Below are positions 53,322 through 60,524 of a DNA stretch of 64,000 nucleotides, in pieces. Positions within the stretch are counted from its first letter, which is position 1; every line of letters starts with the position of its first letter. The position numbers and the translations under genes are program-made. Where the stretch lies: contig NZ_FOAP01000008.1 in the NCBI RefSeq assembly GCF_900109545.1, forward strand, positions 1 through 64,000, given 5' to 3'. The DNA comes from Stigmatella aurantiaca. Lineage in GTDB: Bacteria; Myxococcota; Myxococcia; Myxococcales; Myxococcaceae. The notes beneath the pieces are model-generated. The model made no database searches. It had not been told where the DNA came from and saw only the letters and a list, made by a program, of their open reading frames with translations.

Positions 53322-53798
53322 CTACAGGTTGCGCGGCAGGATGGTGTCCACCAGCGTCATCAGCTGCGCGCAGCTCACCGGCTTGCGCACGAAGGCGTTG
53401 ATGCCCGCGCGCTGGCCCAGCGCGCGCACTTCCGACACGTTCGGATCACCCGTCATCATCAGGATGGGCGTGCGGGCGATGCGCGTATCGGGGTGGGCGC
53501 GCATGGCCTCCGCCAGCTCCGCGCCGCTCATCCCATCCATGCGGTAGTCTGTCAGCACCAGGTCCACCGCGCCCTGCTCCAGCAGCTGCAGGGCCTCCTC
53601 GCCGGACTCGGCCTCCACGTACTCGAAGCTGCGCGCCATCAGGTAGATCTTCAGCAGCGTCCGGATGGAGCGGCTGTCATCGACCAGGAGGACTCGCTGG
53701 GGAGCTCCCGGGGCGACCTTCAGCCCGGGACGGGAGGTTTCAGCGGCGGGGCGGGAGCCAGGGACAACTGCGATGGAGGTGAATGTAGCAGCTGTCAT
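53322..53798 (-). CDS. Orphan response regulator (receiver domain only)
   Basis: A 158-residue protein with a single CheY-like receiver from about 34 to 156. Acidic pocket DD (near 40-41), the phosphoacceptor in LTDYRMDGMSG (near Asp84), the Thr in MMTGD and KPVSC (Lys near 138) are all present. There is no output domain. A 33-residue Pro/Ala-rich tail precedes the receiver; the ATG has GAGGGA ahead. No kinase gene is adjacent, as is common in myxobacteria. A promoter candidate and a 20-base inverted repeat precede it. Confidence 0.92.
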   Translation of the reverse strand: MTAATFTSIAVVPGSRPAAETSRPGLKVAPGAPQRVLLVDDSRSIRTLLKIYLMARSFEYVEAESGEEALQLLEQGAVDLVLTDYRMDGMSGAELAEAMRAHPDTRIARTPILMMTGDPNVSEVRALGQRAGINAFVRKPVSCAQLMTLVDTILPRNL

Positions 53799-53900: not shown

Positions 53901-55139
53901 CTAGGGAACCTCCACGGTGAAGGCCTGACTGTCCACGGCGGGCAGGCCGAAGCCCGGGGCGAGTGAGGGAGCGAGCTCGTTGGGGACGCGCCAGACCTGT
54001 CCAGAAGACTGCATGACGACGACCGCGTAGCGCCCGGAGGGCAGGCCCTGCAGCCGGACGGGGGCCGCCGGGTTCCGGGCGTCGAAGGCCACGGGCTGGA
54101 TGCCCACGGTCAGCTCGGAGACCTCCAGCGTCTTGTCCAGGAGCGGACGGCCCGAGGCGTCGAAGAGTTGGGGGCGGTACACATCCAGCGCCAGCCCCGC
54201 GGCGAGCACCACGAGCTGGGGGAACTCGTCCGGCTGGCCATCGGCGCGCGGGTAGCTGACGCCCTCGGCATCCAGCACGCCGTTGTTGTCCAGGTCGTTC
54301 TCGTCGCGCAGGCCGGCCTCGGTGTCGGCCAGCTTGCGCACCACCACGCGGGGCCAGAGGTCCGGCCGTCCGTCGCCATTGGTGTCATCGGGCTCGCCGT
54401 CGCCGTTCTCGTCCGCGAGGTGGACGCGGAAGATGGGGGCCTGCAGGTCGATGACGCCCTCGCGAATGGCGCGGGCGCGCAGCTGGAGCACCTTGGGCCC
54501 GGCGCCCTCCTCGAGGCGCGGGGTGCCCTGCACCTCGAACACGGGGCGCTCGTTCTGCACGGTGGCCTGCTTGCCGAAGCTCACCGCGACGCCCAGGGTG
54601 GGCACGGGCTTGCCGTCCGCATCCACGCCCACCTCCACCATGCGGGGCTTGAGGGCGGTATCCACCGCGGCCCCGCCCACGTCGTGCACGTTGGGCTCGC
54701 CGGTGACGGTGTACCAGGGGCTGAAGTCCGGCCCATGGCAGGGCTGCAGGCCCATGAGGCAGGTGTCCACGTCGATGAAGCCGCGCAGCAGGTAGTGGCC
54801 CGGGACCAGGTTGCTGAAGGTGAAGGGCGCCGTGAAGGGGCCCTCGTTGGAGGGGCCGGGCGGCTCCTCGCCGAACAGCGTGGCCTGGGGAATCACGGTG
54901 AAGGACAGGGGGCGCCCGGTGCCCAGCGGGGGCGGGGGGCGCGAGGCGTCATAGAGCAGCACCACGGCGTTGCCCCGCGCCGGGCCCTGCATCACCACGT
55001 GGCCCTCGATGCGCGCGGTGTGGCGGTTCTGCTGCCGGTCCTGGGTGGGCACCACGGGCGGCGGCTCGCAGCCGGCGGTGAGCAGGGTGGCGAGGGCCAG
55101 GCCCACGAAGGCCTTCTGACGCGGGCGGAGCGTGCTCAT
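53901..55139 (-). CDS. Lipoprotein with Asp/Asn-rich calcium-type repeats
   Basis: A 412-residue lipoprotein (lipobox LTAGC, Cys24). The middle region (about 240-290) has two acidic loops, DENGDGEPDDTNGDGRPD and DENDLDNNGVLDAEG, that resemble dockerin or thrombospondin-3-type calcium-binding loops. The rest looks like beta-sandwich modules (for example VPGHYLLRGFIDVDTC and LPSGRYAVVVMQSSGQVW). I do not recognise the family. It overlaps the TonB receptor by 4 bases and is last in the kinase-led operon. A surface or outer-membrane partner of the receptor is plausible. Confidence 0.82.
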   Translation of the reverse strand: MSTLRPRQKAFVGLALATLLTAGCEPPPVVPTQDRQQNRHTARIEGHVVMQGPARGNAVVLLYDASRPPPPLGTGRPLSFTVIPQATLFGEEPPGPSNEGPFTAPFTFSNLVPGHYLLRGFIDVDTCLMGLQPCHGPDFSPWYTVTGEPNVHDVGGAAVDTALKPRMVEVGVDADGKPVPTLGVAVSFGKQATVQNERPVFEVQGTPRLEEGAGPKVLQLRARAIREGVIDLQAPIFRVHLADENGDGEPDDTNGDGRPDLWPRVVVRKLADTEAGLRDENDLDNNGVLDAEGVSYPRADGQPDEFPQLVVLAAGLALDVYRPQLFDASGRPLLDKTLEVSELTVGIQPVAFDARNPAAPVRLQGLPSGRYAVVVMQSSGQVWRVPNELAPSLAPGFGLPAVDSQAFTVEVP

Positions 55140-57679
55140 GGGGTCACCGTCACGGTCGCGTAGACGCGGCGCTCGACGCGGTTGCCGAAGGGGTGCTGGA
55201 AGTGGGAGCTGCCCAGGTTGGAGCCCACCACGGCCACCGTGAGCTTGTCCTGGAGCATCGAGTAGCCCACCCGGGCGTTGAGCACGGTGTAGGCGGGAAG
55301 CTGGTTGGCGATGAAGTCGATGCGGGTGGGGTCCCCCAGGTCGGGCTCGCGTTCGATCCAGGTGGTGTCCGAGGTGAAGGCCGCGTCGATGCCAAACTCC
55401 AGGTCGGCGCGCGTGCGGTAGGTGAGGCCACCGAACAGCCGCACCTGGGGCGCTTGGTTGCACGGGGCGCACCGCGACTCCTCTTCGCCCTCCGCCGTCA
55501 CCTTCTGCAGCGCGGCGCTGGCCTTGATGCCCAGGCCGTCCACGGGGGCCAGCGACACGCCCACCTCGGCGCCGCGCGAGGTGTAGGTGGCCTGCTCGTT
55601 CTGGAAGAAGGAGCGGCCGGCCAGGTACGAGCCGGTGACGGGGTCGAACGACTCGCCCGCGGGCATCCGCTGCAAGGGGGACAGGCCGATGAGGTTCTTC
55701 ACCGTGTTCTGGTAGAGGGCCACGTCCCAGTCGATGCCCAGGGTGGGCGCCTCGCCGCGGTAGCCCAGCTCGTAGGCCACCAGCCGCTCGGGGCGCAGCG
55801 TCCGGTTGCCCTGGGTGAGCGCGCTGGCGCCCGGCACGCCGGGCACGGGCACGCGCAGCGCGGTGTAGCTCTCCAGGAAGGCGGGCTCCCGGAAGGCGGA
55901 GGCCGCGGTGGCGCGGAAGGCATGGCCCTCGAAGGGCATGAGGATGCCGGAGACGCGCGGCGAGTGCGCCAGCCCGGGCTCGCCCTGGGACAGCAGCGGG
56001 TGCCGGTCCATGCGGTAGGAGGCGATCAGCCGGAAGGGATCCACGGGCCGCCACTCATCCTGCACGAAGGCGGCGGTGTGGAACTCCTCCTTGGCCCCAG
56101 GCCCCAGGTAGTCCCAGATGACGCGCTTGAAGCGGCCCTCCACGCCCACGTTGAGCAGGTGCTCACCGCCGAGCTCGAAGCCCTTGCTGAAGAGCGCCTC
56201 GCCGTTGAAGACGTGGAAGTCGACGCGGCTGCTCAGCGAGCGCTGGCCGATGCTCTGGTACTGCGGCGCGGCCTTCGAGCCGGTGTGGTTCCAGAAGGCC
56301 TTCACCTTCACGGGGCCCAGGCCCAGGTCGGTCTTGGCGTAGGCGCTCAGCCCGTCCAGGTAGAAGTTGCGCAGCACCCCGAGCGGGTACACCTCGGTGT
56401 AGTACCGGTGGACTCCGGAGGACACGCCCAGGTCCACCCCCGAGTCGAACTTGTACTCGGTGGACAGGTTGGCCCGCGCGCCGCGGTAGCCCAGGTCCTT
56501 CAGGGGCGTCGTCTGGGCGATGTCGGGCCGGTTGTCCCCGAAGTCCCGGCTCCACTTGTCCTCCTGCCCGTAGCCCACGGACAGGCGGTAGCGCAGGCCG
56601 CCCGCGGCCCCATGGCTCAGGAAGGAGCCGGCCGCGGTGTTGCCGCCGCCCGCCCGGGCGATGAACTGCCGGTCCCCGGAGCCGGGCGCCTGGGTGATGA
56701 TGTTGACCACGCCCAGCATCGCGTTGGCGCCGTACAGGGCGCTGCCCGGACCGCGGATGACCTCGATGCGCTCGATTTCCTCCAGCCCGATGGGGAAGTT
56801 GGCCCACAACGTCATGCCCAGGAAGTCCTGGTACTCGGTGCGGCCGTCCACCAGCACGAGCACCTTGTTGGCCATGCGCTGGTTGAAGCCGCGGAAGGAG
56901 AGGTTGGCGCTCGTGACGCCCATCTCCATCACGTCCGCGCCCGGCACCCGGCGCAGCAGCTCCACCAGGCTGGTGGCCCCCGACAGGCGGATGTCCTCGG
57001 CGGTGATGACGGTGGTGGCGTTGGGCGCCTCCAGCGCGGACTGGGCCCGGCGGCTGGCCGTCACCACGCGCTCTTCATAGGGCACCGCGCCCACGTCCTC
57101 CTCGGCCCGCGGCAGCGCGGCGCGGGAGGACGCGGTGGCGCCCGGCGCCGTGGGGGCGGGCGTGGCGGAGGCGGTGGGCAGGGACTCCGCGCGGGCAATG
57201 GCCTTCTCCAGCCGCTCCAGGAGCTGCGCCAGGGCCTGCGCATCCGGCGCGGCCGTGGGCGTGGCCGGGGTGGGCCGGGGCGTGCCCGGCGGCGGCGGCA
57301 TGGGGAGCTTCTGGGCCAGGCTGGAGGACTCGGGCTCGGAGGCCTTCACCGCCTCCTCCAGGCGGGCGATGGTGGCGCGCACGGAGACCGCGTCCGCGGG
57401 GTTGGTCTCCAGGTAGCGCTGGTACCACTCCAGCGCCTCCGGCGAGCGGCCGGCGTCGAGGTACGCGCGCGCGATGTTGTAGAGCACGCTGGGGTGCGGC
57501 TTGATGGCGTACGCTTCCTTCAACTCGGCGATGCCCGGGTCGAACGCCCCCTGGGCGATGAGGCTCATGCCGTTGCGGAAGTGGCGCCGCGCCTCCAAGC
57601 GCTCGTCGGCCAGGGCATTTCCCGCGTACAGGGACAGCGCGAGAAGGCCCGCTCGCTTGAACACTTCGGTGAGTTTCAC
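55136..57679 (-). CDS. TonB-dependent receptor with N-terminal TPR region
   Basis: An 847-residue outer membrane receptor. After a signal peptide (about 1-24) come TPR-like helices (about 27-115: LEARRHFRNGMSLIAQGAFDPGIAELKEAY, LYNIARAYLDAGRSPEALEWYQRYL), then a Pro/Ala-rich linker to about 205. The plug domain follows (VVTASRRAQSALEAPNATTVITAEDI, RRVPGADV, RIEVIRGPGSALYGANAMLGVVNIIT), then the 22-strand barrel. The TPR prefix in a receptor is unusual. It overlaps the kinase stop by 4 bases and the lipoprotein start by 4. The ligand is unknown. Confidence 0.92.
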   Translation of the reverse strand: MKLTEVFKRAGLLALSLYAGNALADERLEARRHFRNGMSLIAQGAFDPGIAELKEAYAIKPHPSVLYNIARAYLDAGRSPEALEWYQRYLETNPADAVSVRATIARLEEAVKASEPESSSLAQKLPMPPPPGTPRPTPATPTAAPDAQALAQLLERLEKAIARAESLPTASATPAPTAPGATASSRAALPRAEEDVGAVPYEERVVTASRRAQSALEAPNATTVITAEDIRLSGATSLVELLRRVPGADVMEMGVTSANLSFRGFNQRMANKVLVLVDGRTEYQDFLGMTLWANFPIGLEEIERIEVIRGPGSALYGANAMLGVVNIITQAPGSGDRQFIARAGGGNTAAGSFLSHGAAGGLRYRLSVGYGQEDKWSRDFGDNRPDIAQTTPLKDLGYRGARANLSTEYKFDSGVDLGVSSGVHRYYTEVYPLGVLRNFYLDGLSAYAKTDLGLGPVKVKAFWNHTGSKAAPQYQSIGQRSLSSRVDFHVFNGEALFSKGFELGGEHLLNVGVEGRFKRVIWDYLGPGAKEEFHTAAFVQDEWRPVDPFRLIASYRMDRHPLLSQGEPGLAHSPRVSGILMPFEGHAFRATAASAFREPAFLESYTALRVPVPGVPGASALTQGNRTLRPERLVAYELGYRGEAPTLGIDWDVALYQNTVKNLIGLSPLQRMPAGESFDPVTGSYLAGRSFFQNEQATYTSRGAEVGVSLAPVDGLGIKASAALQKVTAEGEEESRCAPCNQAPQVRLFGGLTYRTRADLEFGIDAAFTSDTTWIEREPDLGDPTRIDFIANQLPAYTVLNARVGYSMLQDKLTVAVVGSNLGSSHFQHPFGNRVERRVYATVTVTP

Positions 57680-59328
57680 TGGTAGGGATCGTCCTTGTAA
57701 CCGGTCGAGCCCGGCCGCTGCCGCGAGGGGCCCTTCTTCTTCTTGAGCTTGTGGGTGAAGCGCACTTCAGGCCCCTCGCCCTCCGCCTTGACGGTGGCGC
57801 GGGGGTAGCCGCTGAGCTCGAACGTCAGCTCGGCGCTGGCCCGGCCCGCCGCGTTCGCCGGGAGCTTCAGCTCCACGGGCGTCTGGCCCAGGTCCTTGCC
57901 CCGGTGCTTCACCCGGGCGCCGCTGGGCTCGCTGGCGATGAGGAAGCGCACCAGGGAGGCCTGGGCCACGGCCTCCGGCGCGGCGGGCTCGGGAGGGGCC
58001 TCCTCCACGGGAGCGGAGGGCGCCGCGGGGGCCTCCGGCTCGCCGGTGAGGTTCGCGGCGAGCGCATCGGGAGCCGGCTCCGTGCCGGCGGGGGCCTGCG
58101 TGGGGGGAGGGGCCGGGAGAGGCGCCGGGGCCGCCACGAGCGGGGCCGGGGGCGGCTTGGAGGCGGGCGTGCTCAGGGCGAACACCAGGGACACGGCCAC
58201 GCCGGCCAGCACCGAGCCGGCGAGCAGGGCGATGGCCAGGGAGTTGCGGCGCCCCTTCGTCCGCGGCTCCTCCTCCTCCACGGAGATGTCGAGCGCCATG
58301 GTGGAGGCGTTGGAGGGCGAGGGCGGCGTGCCGATGGGGCCCGTGTGGGGGCCACTGCCGGGGGTGATGAAGGAGCGGGGGCCCGAGTAGAAGCCGCTGC
58401 TGAGGCCGGCCGCGGCGGTGGTGCGGCGGATGCTGTCGAGCACCCGGTCCATCGAGTCGAAGCGCTCCGCGGGCTGCTTGGACAGGCACTTCATCACCAG
58501 CGCCTCCACCTCGGGAGGGATGGTGTGGTTGGGCCAGATGGCCGCGAAGGTGGGGGGCGGCTCGTTGAGGTGCTTGACGATGATGTCGATGCTCTGCTCG
58601 GCCAGGAACGGGGGGCGCCCCAGCAGCATCTGGTAGAGCACCACGCCCAGCGAGTACACGTCGCTGCGCGGGTCGGAGATGTTGCGCGCCTGCTCGGGCG
58701 CCATGTACTGCGGCGAGCCGAGGATGACGCCCGCCTGGGTGAGCGACACGTCCGCGGGGAAGCTGCCCCCGTCGGGCATGAAGGACTTCACCAGCCCGAA
58801 GTCCAGCACCTTCACCAGGTCGTGGTCCTTCTCCTGGTTGAGAATCATCACGTTGGCGGGCTTCAGGTCGCGGTGGATGAGGCCGACCTTGTGCGCCTCG
58901 CGCAGGGAGCGGGCAATCTGCTGGGCGATGCTGAGCGCGCGCGGCCAGGGCAGGGGGCCCGTCTGGGTGAGCATCTGCGAGAGGGTCAGCCCCTCGATGT
59001 ACTCCATCGCGATGTAGTAGATGCCGTCGTCGGTCTTCCCGTAGTCGATGATGGTGATGGTGTTGGGGTGGCGCAGCTTCGCGGTGACGTTGGCTTCCAG
59101 GAAGAAGCGGCGCTGGAACCCGGGATCCTTGTCCTGGCCGTACTGGGGGTTGAGGATCTTCAGCGCGACCATGCGGTCGAGCGGGGACTGGATGGCCTTG
59201 TACACGCGTCCCATGCCGCCGGCGCCCAGCGCTTCGACGATCTTGAAACGCTCGTTGAGAACCCTGCCCAACAGGGGGTCCTCGATGGGGGGTGGCGCGC
59301 CCCCCGCAGAGGCGTCGCTTTCAATCAT
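57676..59328 (-). CDS. Membrane Ser/Thr protein kinase with C-terminal PEGA-like domain
   Basis: A eukaryote-like kinase of 550 residues. The glycine loop GAGGMGRVY (35-43), Lys57, HRDLKPAN (152-159), DFG (176-178) and YMAPEQA are intact, so it is probably active. A helix at about 365-385 anchors it. Outside lie a Pro/Ala linker and a PEGA-like domain (about 465-535; IASEPSGARVKHRGKDLGQTP). It leads a three-gene operon with a TonB receptor and a lipoprotein, each joined by ATGA overlaps. It may sense the envelope and control the receptor system. Confidence 0.94.
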   Translation of the reverse strand: MIESDASAGGAPPPIEDPLLGRVLNERFKIVEALGAGGMGRVYKAIQSPLDRMVALKILNPQYGQDKDPGFQRRFFLEANVTAKLRHPNTITIIDYGKTDDGIYYIAMEYIEGLTLSQMLTQTGPLPWPRALSIAQQIARSLREAHKVGLIHRDLKPANVMILNQEKDHDLVKVLDFGLVKSFMPDGGSFPADVSLTQAGVILGSPQYMAPEQARNISDPRSDVYSLGVVLYQMLLGRPPFLAEQSIDIIVKHLNEPPPTFAAIWPNHTIPPEVEALVMKCLSKQPAERFDSMDRVLDSIRRTTAAAGLSSGFYSGPRSFITPGSGPHTGPIGTPPSPSNASTMALDISVEEEEPRTKGRRNSLAIALLAGSVLAGVAVSLVFALSTPASKPPPAPLVAAPAPLPAPPPTQAPAGTEPAPDALAANLTGEPEAPAAPSAPVEEAPPEPAAPEAVAQASLVRFLIASEPSGARVKHRGKDLGQTPVELKLPANAAGRASAELTFELSGYPRATVKAEGEGPEVRFTHKLKKKKGPSRQRPGSTGYKDDPYQ

Positions 59329-59660
59329 GTGCTCCCCCGCCGCAAGGCGGCTTCAAAGCCAGTAGGGCAGGAATGCTAGCACCGGATGTTCTACTGCCCA
59401 AGAGACCGGGCTGCGGAGAAGCCCTCCAGGCCCGGAAATCCGGCCTCGGGCGAGGGCCGCTTCCCCGAGGGATCAGCCCCCGCCCTTCTCACGCGCAGTG
59501 TGGCTGAAATCGCCCGGAGCCCCCTCTGGCCCGCCGCCCGGGCCGGTGTTCGGCGCGCTGCGCCAAAAACCCTGGCGGTTTGTGACATGCGGGAAACGGG
59601 GGAGGGGGCAGGGGGCCGGCAGGTGACCGGAGGGGAACTCCCGGGCATAAAGTGCCCGGC
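59329..59660. other. Divergent control region of the kinase operon and the B12-type gene
   Basis: A 332-base gap with no convincing gene. CCGCC-GCAA-GGCGG (59337-59350) is a small hairpin directly before the GGGGAG ribosome site of the kinase gene. GGGCAG (59365-59370) and CTGCCC (59394-59399) form a wider inverted pair. CGCCA-N7-TGGCG (59561-59577) lies in an AT-richer patch. I looked for a cobalamin riboswitch because the + strand gene is BtuF-like and could not find the consensus boxes. Confidence 0.4.
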
Positions 59661-60524
59661 ATGACGGCCTCCCTCGACCGGTTGCTTGCTTCCGCGCCCC
59701 GGTACCCCCAGCGCATCGTCTGCATGACGGAGGAGACGACGGAGACGCTCTACCGCATTGGCGCCGGGGACCTGGTGGTGGGGGTCTCGGGCTTCACGGT
59801 GCGCCCCCCCGAGGCGCGCAAGAAGCCGCGCGTCAGCTCGTTCCTGGACGCGAACTTCGAGCGCATCCTGGAGCTGAAGCCCGACCTGGTGCTCGGGTTC
59901 TCGGACCTGCAGGCGGACCTGGGGCGCGAGCTGTGCAAGCGCGGCGTGCCCGTGTACCTGTTCAACCAGCGCTCGGTGGCGGAGATCCTCCAGACCGTGC
60001 GCGTGGTGGGCGCGCTGGTGGGGCGGGCGGAGGCGGCGGAGCACCTGGCGGACACGCTGAGGGCCAACCTGGAGCGCCACGCGCACGCCGCGGAGGCCCT
60101 GCCCCGGCGGCCCCGCATCTTCTTCGAGGAGTGGCACGAGCCCCTCATCTCCGGCATCCGCTGGTGCTCGGAGCTGGTGGAGCTGGTGGGCGGCGAGGAC
60201 GTGTGTGCCGAGTCCCGCGCCCACCCGGAGGCCAAGGGCCGTATCTTCACCCCCGAGGAGGTGGCGCGGCGCAACCCCGAGGCGGTCATCGCCAGCTGGT
60301 GTGGGCGCAAGGCCAAGCGGGACAAGATCGTCTCCCGCCCGGGCTGGAAGGAGGTCCGCGCCGTGGTGGATGATCAGCTCTACGAGGTGAAGAGCTCCTT
60401 CATCCTCCAGCCGGGCCCGGCGGCGCTCTCGGACGGGGTGGATCAGCTCGCGCGCATCGTGGCGGCCGTGGCCCAGGGGCGCACGTTGCCCTCGCCCCGC
60501 CCGGAGGACCTGCGCACGGCGTGA
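59661..60524 (+). CDS. BtuF-like periplasmic-binding-fold protein lacking a signal peptide
   Basis: A 287-residue protein with the class III substrate-binding fold of BtuF and helical-backbone proteins: RIVCMTEETTETLYRIGAGDLVVGVS, LELKPDLVLGFSDLQ, a backbone helix (about 95-140) and ASWCGRKAK, VVDDQLYEVKSSFILQPGPAALSDGV. These carry cobalamin or iron chelates to ABC importers. There is no signal peptide or lipobox at either possible start (59652 or 59661), and no transporter gene is adjacent. A cytoplasmic cobalamin-binding role is possible. Confidence 0.85.
   Translation: MTASLDRLLASAPRYPQRIVCMTEETTETLYRIGAGDLVVGVSGFTVRPPEARKKPRVSSFLDANFERILELKPDLVLGFSDLQADLGRELCKRGVPVYLFNQRSVAEILQTVRVVGALVGRAEAAEHLADTLRANLERHAHAAEALPRRPRIFFEEWHEPLISGIRWCSELVELVGGEDVCAESRAHPEAKGRIFTPEEVARRNPEAVIASWCGRKAKRDKIVSRPGWKEVRAVVDDQLYEVKSSFILQPGPAALSDGVDQLARIVAAVAQGRTLPSPRPEDLRTA

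Follow-up and report, generated by a model that had tools for sequence, protein, structure and literature searches.

A tagged Ser/Thr kinase, a TPR-bearing TonB-dependent receptor and a lipoprotein form a conserved operon in Stigmatella aurantiaca, a candidate trans-envelope signalling module

We analysed a 64,000-nucleotide stretch of Stigmatella aurantiaca DNA (contig NZ_FOAP01000008.1 of RefSeq assembly GCF_900109545.1, positions 1 to 64,000), here called the window. Positions 53901-59328, on the minus strand, hold three consecutive genes, encoding a Ser/Thr kinase, a TonB-dependent receptor with an N-terminal TPR domain, and a lipoprotein. We propose, with a probability of about 0.5, that the state of the receptor controls the kinase through a contact of the TPR domain with a C-terminal tag and the PEGA domain of the kinase, so that the operon would act as a signalling module across the envelope. 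Placed in the outer membrane and helped by the lipoprotein, the receptor would bind and probably import a ligand. Its periplasmic TPR domain, which precedes the TonB box just as the signalling domain of FecA-type receptors does, would hold the invariant tag at the end of the inner membrane kinase; the PEGA domain beside the tag may add a second contact. When ligand is bound and TonB pulls, the TPR-tag contact would alter and, through it, the activity of the kinase in the cytoplasm.

The tag reads YKDDPYQ in the window (57679..57699, minus strand) and is predicted to be periplasmic; its pattern, YK[DE][DN]PY, is near-invariant at the kinase end. When 31 kinases of 450 residues or more were aligned, it was the most conserved stretch: the mean majority-residue share was 0.96 for YKDDPY, compared with 0.41 for the preceding linker, 0.59 for the PEGA domain and 0.79 for the catalytic domain. 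The pattern [YF]K[DE][DN]PY, followed by at most one residue, formed the end of 33 of 34 distinct kinases (loci L048 and L065 duplicate the contigs of L039 and L042 and were dropped from all counts of distinct loci). The one kinase that differs, L040, has a broken frame; in its genome, G044, the DNA of the tag lies where expected. A DNA pattern for the tag and its stop codon matched once in the S. aurantiaca genome and in 87 of the 195 genomes of the phylum, and the reversed pattern matched in none. Since the end of the pattern, TRR, also admits TGG, one match (contig C122 of G097) is of that kind. All 24 of the genomes of family f3 listed in the scan lacked the tag.

We then compared the position of the tag with that of the lipoprotein, for which the query found matches in 98 of the 145 genomes of the order (E value up to 0.001). 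The comparison covers 95 of the 98; G054, G089 and G129, with weak partial matches, were left out. Tag and lipoprotein were both present in 81 genomes. In 77 of these, the tag preceded the lipoprotein on the same strand at a distance of 2498-3097 bp; in the other 4 the two were on different contigs, and no genome contradicted the placement. The best lipoprotein piece was used for 75 of the 77, and a lower-scoring piece on the contig of the tag for G007 and G087. The exact tag pattern was missing in 14 genomes with the lipoprotein, and the four loci read among them (L052, L069, L081 and L156) have Phe for the first Tyr. Six genomes had the tag but none of the listed lipoprotein matches: G163 and G187, which carry operons; G129, in which the sequence ends inside the receptor; G002, in which the receptor has one internal stop and runs to the contig end; G003, described below; and G167, in which we attribute the match to chance. 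The initial annotation of this region had grouped the three genes, a grouping that was to stand or fall with their co-occurrence in relatives. The placement of the tag upholds it; the tag itself and the FecA-like position of the TPR domain had not been part of that annotation.

The kinase gene (57676..59328, minus strand, as for all features of the operon) encodes 550 amino acids, the receptor gene (55136..57679, with a GTG start) 847, and the lipoprotein gene (53901..55139) 412. As read from the sequence, the kinase stop and the receptor start share a GTGA (57676..57679), and the receptor stop and the lipoprotein start share an ATGA (55136..55139). The initial annotation was thus right about coupling, although it had described both junctions as ATGA. 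Of 39 distinct loci, 35 had a 4-nucleotide overlap between receptor and lipoprotein, and of 34 loci, 17 had one between kinase and receptor, a recurrence that exceeds chance. Among neighbourhoods taken from a spread of genera, kinase, TPR-TonB receptor and lipoprotein lay in this order on one strand wherever the contig was long enough, with three exceptions (G003, G012 and G130). Family f2 has the same gene order, with about 40% identity in the kinase and the receptor. Outside the order, all three parts, the kinase with its tag, the TonB receptor with its TPR domain and the lipoprotein, were found in G163 (L149, from another family of the class) and in G187 (L153, from another family of the phylum). 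The operon was not present at L077, L154 or L179. The retention of gene order across families, two of them outside the order, and the conservation and fixed placement of the tag argue for the proposed module.

The three exceptions are natural losses that separate the parts of the operon. G003 (family f2, L152) has kept the kinase and its tag and has lost the barrel and the lipoprotein, all inside one contig; its receptor gene now encodes a TPR protein of 226 residues, which ends just past the TonB box. In G012 (family f2, L171) the kinase ends YRDDPY and a full receptor is present, and no lipoprotein was found beside them or elsewhere in the genome (E value up to 0.001). In G130 (family f1) the kinase has neither linker nor tag, and no receptor adjoins it. 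This kinase is 64-68% identical to the operon kinases of its genus. In G132-G136 its best match, at 65-68%, is the operon kinase, ahead of a paralogue at 52-54% that G130 has as well; for G131, in which the operon kinase is cut by the contig end, only the paralogue was listed. The genome of G130 gave generic TonB receptor matches only (best E value 8.2e-24, 29% identity), compared with a full-length match at 80% in its congener G131. Taken together, the tag stays where the TPR domain stays (G003 and G012) and goes where the receptor goes (G130). The losses thus tie the tag to the TPR domain and not to the lipoprotein or the barrel.

The pairing of tag and TPR recurs in a second kinase family. 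The S. aurantiaca genome encodes a kinase ending RDELIDPFAM (L006:2057-3505, minus strand), whose gene overlaps the next one, which encodes a secreted TPR protein (the pair spans L006:1348-3505); the periplasmic part of this kinase looks PEGA-like by eye and has no Pfam PEGA match. Relatives with E values up to 1e-100 were found in 23 of 49 genomes, at 24 loci (L181-L204), a count that includes the S. aurantiaca pair as L181. A TPR match lay directly downstream of 16 of the 19 kinases with a [DN]PF tail and of 0 of the 5 without it. Two of the three tailed kinases that lack a TPR neighbour (L197 and L201) end HPDPFKL. The idea of a link between tail and TPR was raised by a locus of G123 (L180:3972-6648), where a kinase of a third kind, an FHA-kinase-PEGA protein ending DDLKASPY, is followed by a TPR-PEGA protein. 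The further PEGA-list kinases of the S. aurantiaca genome, eight out of eight, have neither tail nor TPR neighbour (L104, L105, L110 and L118 were left out because they have no complete frame). TPR and PEGA also meet on TonB receptors: one S. aurantiaca receptor (L082:8500-11361, on contig C15 of genome G000) joins a TPR domain, three PEGA domains, a plug and a barrel in one chain, and no kinase gene directly adjoins it. Both the pairing in the second family and the joining of PEGA and TPR in one receptor chain favor the proposed module, as does the precedent of FecA and FpvA, for which passages of the literature describe a domain ahead of the TonB box. We tentatively suggest a class of myxobacterial transmembrane kinases that end, in the periplasm, in a P[YF] tag able to dock on interchangeable TPR partners, whether a free periplasmic TPR protein, a TPR-PEGA protein or a receptor-fused TPR. 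In the fused form, sensing for a Ser/Thr phosphorylation cascade would fall to a TonB receptor, without the need for a sigma or anti-sigma factor.

Several observations weigh against the proposed module. The overlap of kinase and receptor genes recurs in just half of the loci, and genes of one operon may share a function without their products touching. Each natural loss is a single draft genome, that of G130 being in 640 contigs with a contamination value of 5. Three of the 19 tailed kinases of the second family have no adjacent TPR, and related loci are not independent, so the link between tail and TPR is an association and not a set of independent events. A structure model of the joined chain counts slightly for the module, PEGA and TPR being confident and confidence rising modestly at the tag (block means 54, 74 and 63); it came without coordinates or a control and is no more than compatible with a tag-TPR contact.

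These points leave room for other explanations. The TPR-tag contact could be structural, with the kinase monitoring the link between the membranes as a tether or integrity sensor and the receptor serving mainly as an outer membrane anchor. G003, which keeps kinase, tag and TPR without a barrel, fits this idea, as do the free TPR proteins that partner the second kinase family. We consider it unlikely, however, because the plug (majority-residue share, 0.85) and the TonB box (0.89) are among the best-kept parts of the receptor, which is unexpected for a mere anchor, and because the TPR protein remaining in G003 has no outer membrane part. It is equally doubtful that the receptor and lipoprotein import a nutrient while the kinase, merely co-regulated with them, senses some other input, for example the state of the cell wall through its PEGA domain. 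The tighter coupling of receptor to lipoprotein than of kinase to receptor, and the presence in G130 of a kinase without a receptor, would suit such a division of labor. However, the tag of that same kinase went along with the receptor, tag-TPR pairing recurs in another kinase family, and the gene order has been kept in distant families.

The direction of control might also be reversed, the tag on the TPR domain holding or freeing the TonB box so that the state of the kinase sets uptake. This explanation draws on the same tag-TPR evidence as the proposed module, and passages of two reviews state that the extra N-terminal domain of FecA and FpvA can cover the TonB box (PMC11658791, PMC9249621). 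Nevertheless, in the operon receptor the linker that separates the TPR domain from the box is long and variable (residues 111-198; share, 0.40), and the conserved catalytic domain of the kinase suggests an output into the cytoplasm; we regard inside-out control as quite improbable. If the proposed control of the kinase by the receptor is correct, it would be a new way for a TonB-type receptor to signal inward, adding a second route from outer to inner membrane that needs no sigma factor, and it would give a defined input to one kinase among the numerous orphan Ser/Thr kinases that myxobacteria possess. The tag offers a handle for finding kinase-partner pairs by genome scan and, being seven residues long, makes the periplasmic roles of PEGA and TPR directly testable.

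The kinase, which the initial annotation had recognized as a membrane Ser/Thr kinase, is of the Hanks type by its domain matches and catalytic motifs. Its cytoplasmic catalytic domain spans residues 28-291 (58456..59247; Pkinase, 8.6e-48), and all five catalytic motif patterns were present in 29 of the 31 aligned kinases, L069 and L073 each lacking one. A hydrophobic stretch chosen by eye at residues 363-388 (58165..58242) is the probable membrane span. It is followed by a proline/alanine-rich linker, the PEGA domain at residues 463-530 (57739..57942; Pfam score, 21.0 bits against a cut-off of 20.8) and a lysine-rich linker that leads to the tag. The PEGA-like domain of the initial annotation is therefore retained, with a predicted location in the periplasm rather than outside the cell.

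The receptor was also correctly recognized there as an outer membrane receptor, and its plug, barrel and TonB box assign it, by homology, to the TonB-dependent receptor superfamily. A signal peptide (by eye) is followed by the predicted periplasmic TPR domain at residues 25-110 (57350..57607), defined by a Pfam TPR match at 36-105 and by alignment. Foldseek searches with the TPR domain of a relative were headed by TPR folds, and the list included a fusion of Sec72 with the C-terminal peptide of Ssa1. After the low-complexity linker comes the TonB box region, YEERVVTASRRA, at residues 201-212 (57044..57079), in which EERVVTASR pairs with ETMVVTAS of Cir in an alignment. The plug occupies residues 216-324 (56708..57034; PF07715, 4.9e-23) and the beta-barrel residues 365-847 (55139..56587; PF00593, 2.5e-34 for 365-822). 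The initial annotation had proposed a complete system for sensing and uptake. What we found strongly supports one conserved set but not a complete system, there being neither TonB nor an ATP-binding cassette (ABC) partner in the operon; tag-TPR pairing lends indirect support to a sensing role, and uptake is predicted from homology of the receptor. Ser/Thr kinases that themselves end in a TonB C-terminal domain occur in G122 (L169:4759-6858) and G086 (L170:4171-6255), with PF03544 scores of 52.8 and 49.3 bits (cut-off, 24.6); by eye, each lies just upstream of a gene resembling that for the ATP synthase alpha subunit.

The lipoprotein has a lipobox, LLTAGC, with Cys24 followed by Glu. Position +2 was Glu or Asp in 27 of 27 lipoproteins, and position +7 in the window is Val. 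According to passages describing sorting in Myxococcus xanthus, Lys at +2 directs lipoproteins to the inner membrane and Ala at +7 to the extracellular matrix (PMC3222651); by this rule the residues found fit outer membrane sorting. The acidic calcium-type loops of the initial annotation were borne out as predicted, conserved features: DENGDGEPDDTNGDGRPD at residues 243-260 (54360..54413) and DLDNNGVLD at residues 282-290 (54270..54296), with D251, D252, D282 and D290 kept in all 27. They suggest a calcium-stabilised lipoprotein, which may act as a ligand-binding cap. At E values up to 0.01, no Pfam family, SusD included, matched any of the 27 aligned members. The AlphaFold model has a mean predicted local distance difference test (pLDDT) score of 71, and a profile search of solved structures gave one weak match (E value, 0.048). 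The best structural matches were fimbrial or adhesin beta-sandwich domains, with Z scores up to 7.4 within residues 40-233; such scores are typical of common arrangements, and we claim no fold relative. No lipoprotein match was found on plasmids, and a scan of genome contigs found no relative with the lipoprotein query and four named loci with the receptor query. In family f2, the lipoprotein region contains several tandem domain copies in long open frames of up to 1686 codons (L071:7505-12379, L072:7713-11732 and L073:5275-8340). Distant relatives of the lipoprotein also occur away from the operon (L077:8752-9381 and L075:8554-9561).

Upstream of the kinase gene, a promoter-like TTGGGC-17-TAGCAT (59373..59401, minus strand) was chosen by eye in a conserved block of a six-species alignment. 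A consensus scan for promoters and terminators gave no result, and no Fur-like operator was seen upstream by eye, no formal scan having been made. Rfam at the gathering threshold, searched for a riboswitch as a clue to the substrate, gave no match in the window or in nine loci. A single-domain response regulator (53322-53798, minus strand) lies downstream of the operon, and a divergent gene for a PF01497 binding protein without an obvious signal peptide (59652-60524, plus strand) lies upstream. Counting the window, these adjoin the operon in just 20 and 18 of 42 distinct loci, respectively, and hence we place both outside the core.

New here are the near-invariant tag and its tie to the TPR domain of the receptor. 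Among the open-licence papers listed by literature searches (in two of them, 15 of 675 and 20 of 74 matches), no title or abstract opening describes a TonB receptor coupled to a Ser/Thr kinase, a TPR signalling domain on a TonB receptor or such a tag. The word "kinase" is absent from two TonB reviews (PMC9249621, PMC11658791), "TonB" and "outer membrane" from a review of bacterial Ser/Thr kinases (PMC6213207), and "TonB" and "PEGA" from a kinase classification paper (PMC2877116). For FecA-type receptors, passages of the two TonB reviews describe a signalling domain that precedes the TonB box and touches FecR at its C-terminal, periplasmic part (PMC9249621, PMC11658791). The receptor of the window resembles those of the FecA-FecR-FecI and FpvA systems in having an extra periplasmic domain ahead of the box (TPR, 25-110; box, 201-212; plug, 216-324). 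By analogy, its partner would likewise span the inner membrane and receive the signal at a periplasmic C-terminus, here the PEGA domain and tag. In contrast to those systems, TPR stands in place of the STN domain (the 18 Pfam families with E values up to 1 did not include PF07660), and a Hanks-type kinase with PEGA and tag stands in place of FecR, for which there was no Pfam match. No extracytoplasmic function (ECF) sigma factor was among the six neighbour proteins scanned, the rest of the genome not having been searched for one. The lack of an STN domain and of a FecR partner beside it places this receptor outside the FecA class.

The operon also shares features with other known systems. Like SusC/SusD-type pairs, to which the receptor-lipoprotein pair BtuB/BtuG is comparable, it couples a TonB receptor gene to a lipoprotein gene; unlike them, it adds a kinase gene, and its lipoprotein has no SusD match. 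The kinase resembles PASTA kinases of the PknB/PrkC type in its Hanks-type catalytic domain, single membrane span and extracytoplasmic sensor part. PknB and PknA are its relatives in the PDB, and it scores 313 bits against NF033483, below the curated cut-off of 450. However, the Pfam scan of the kinase found no PASTA repeats, and PEGA and tag stand where those kinases carry them. Some eukaryotic TPR domains bind C-terminal EEVD peptides. By analogy, the groove of the receptor's TPR domain could hold the tag, likewise short, conserved, acidic and C-terminal, although here the TPR domain is predicted to be periplasmic, the tag has a different sequence and the binding is putative.

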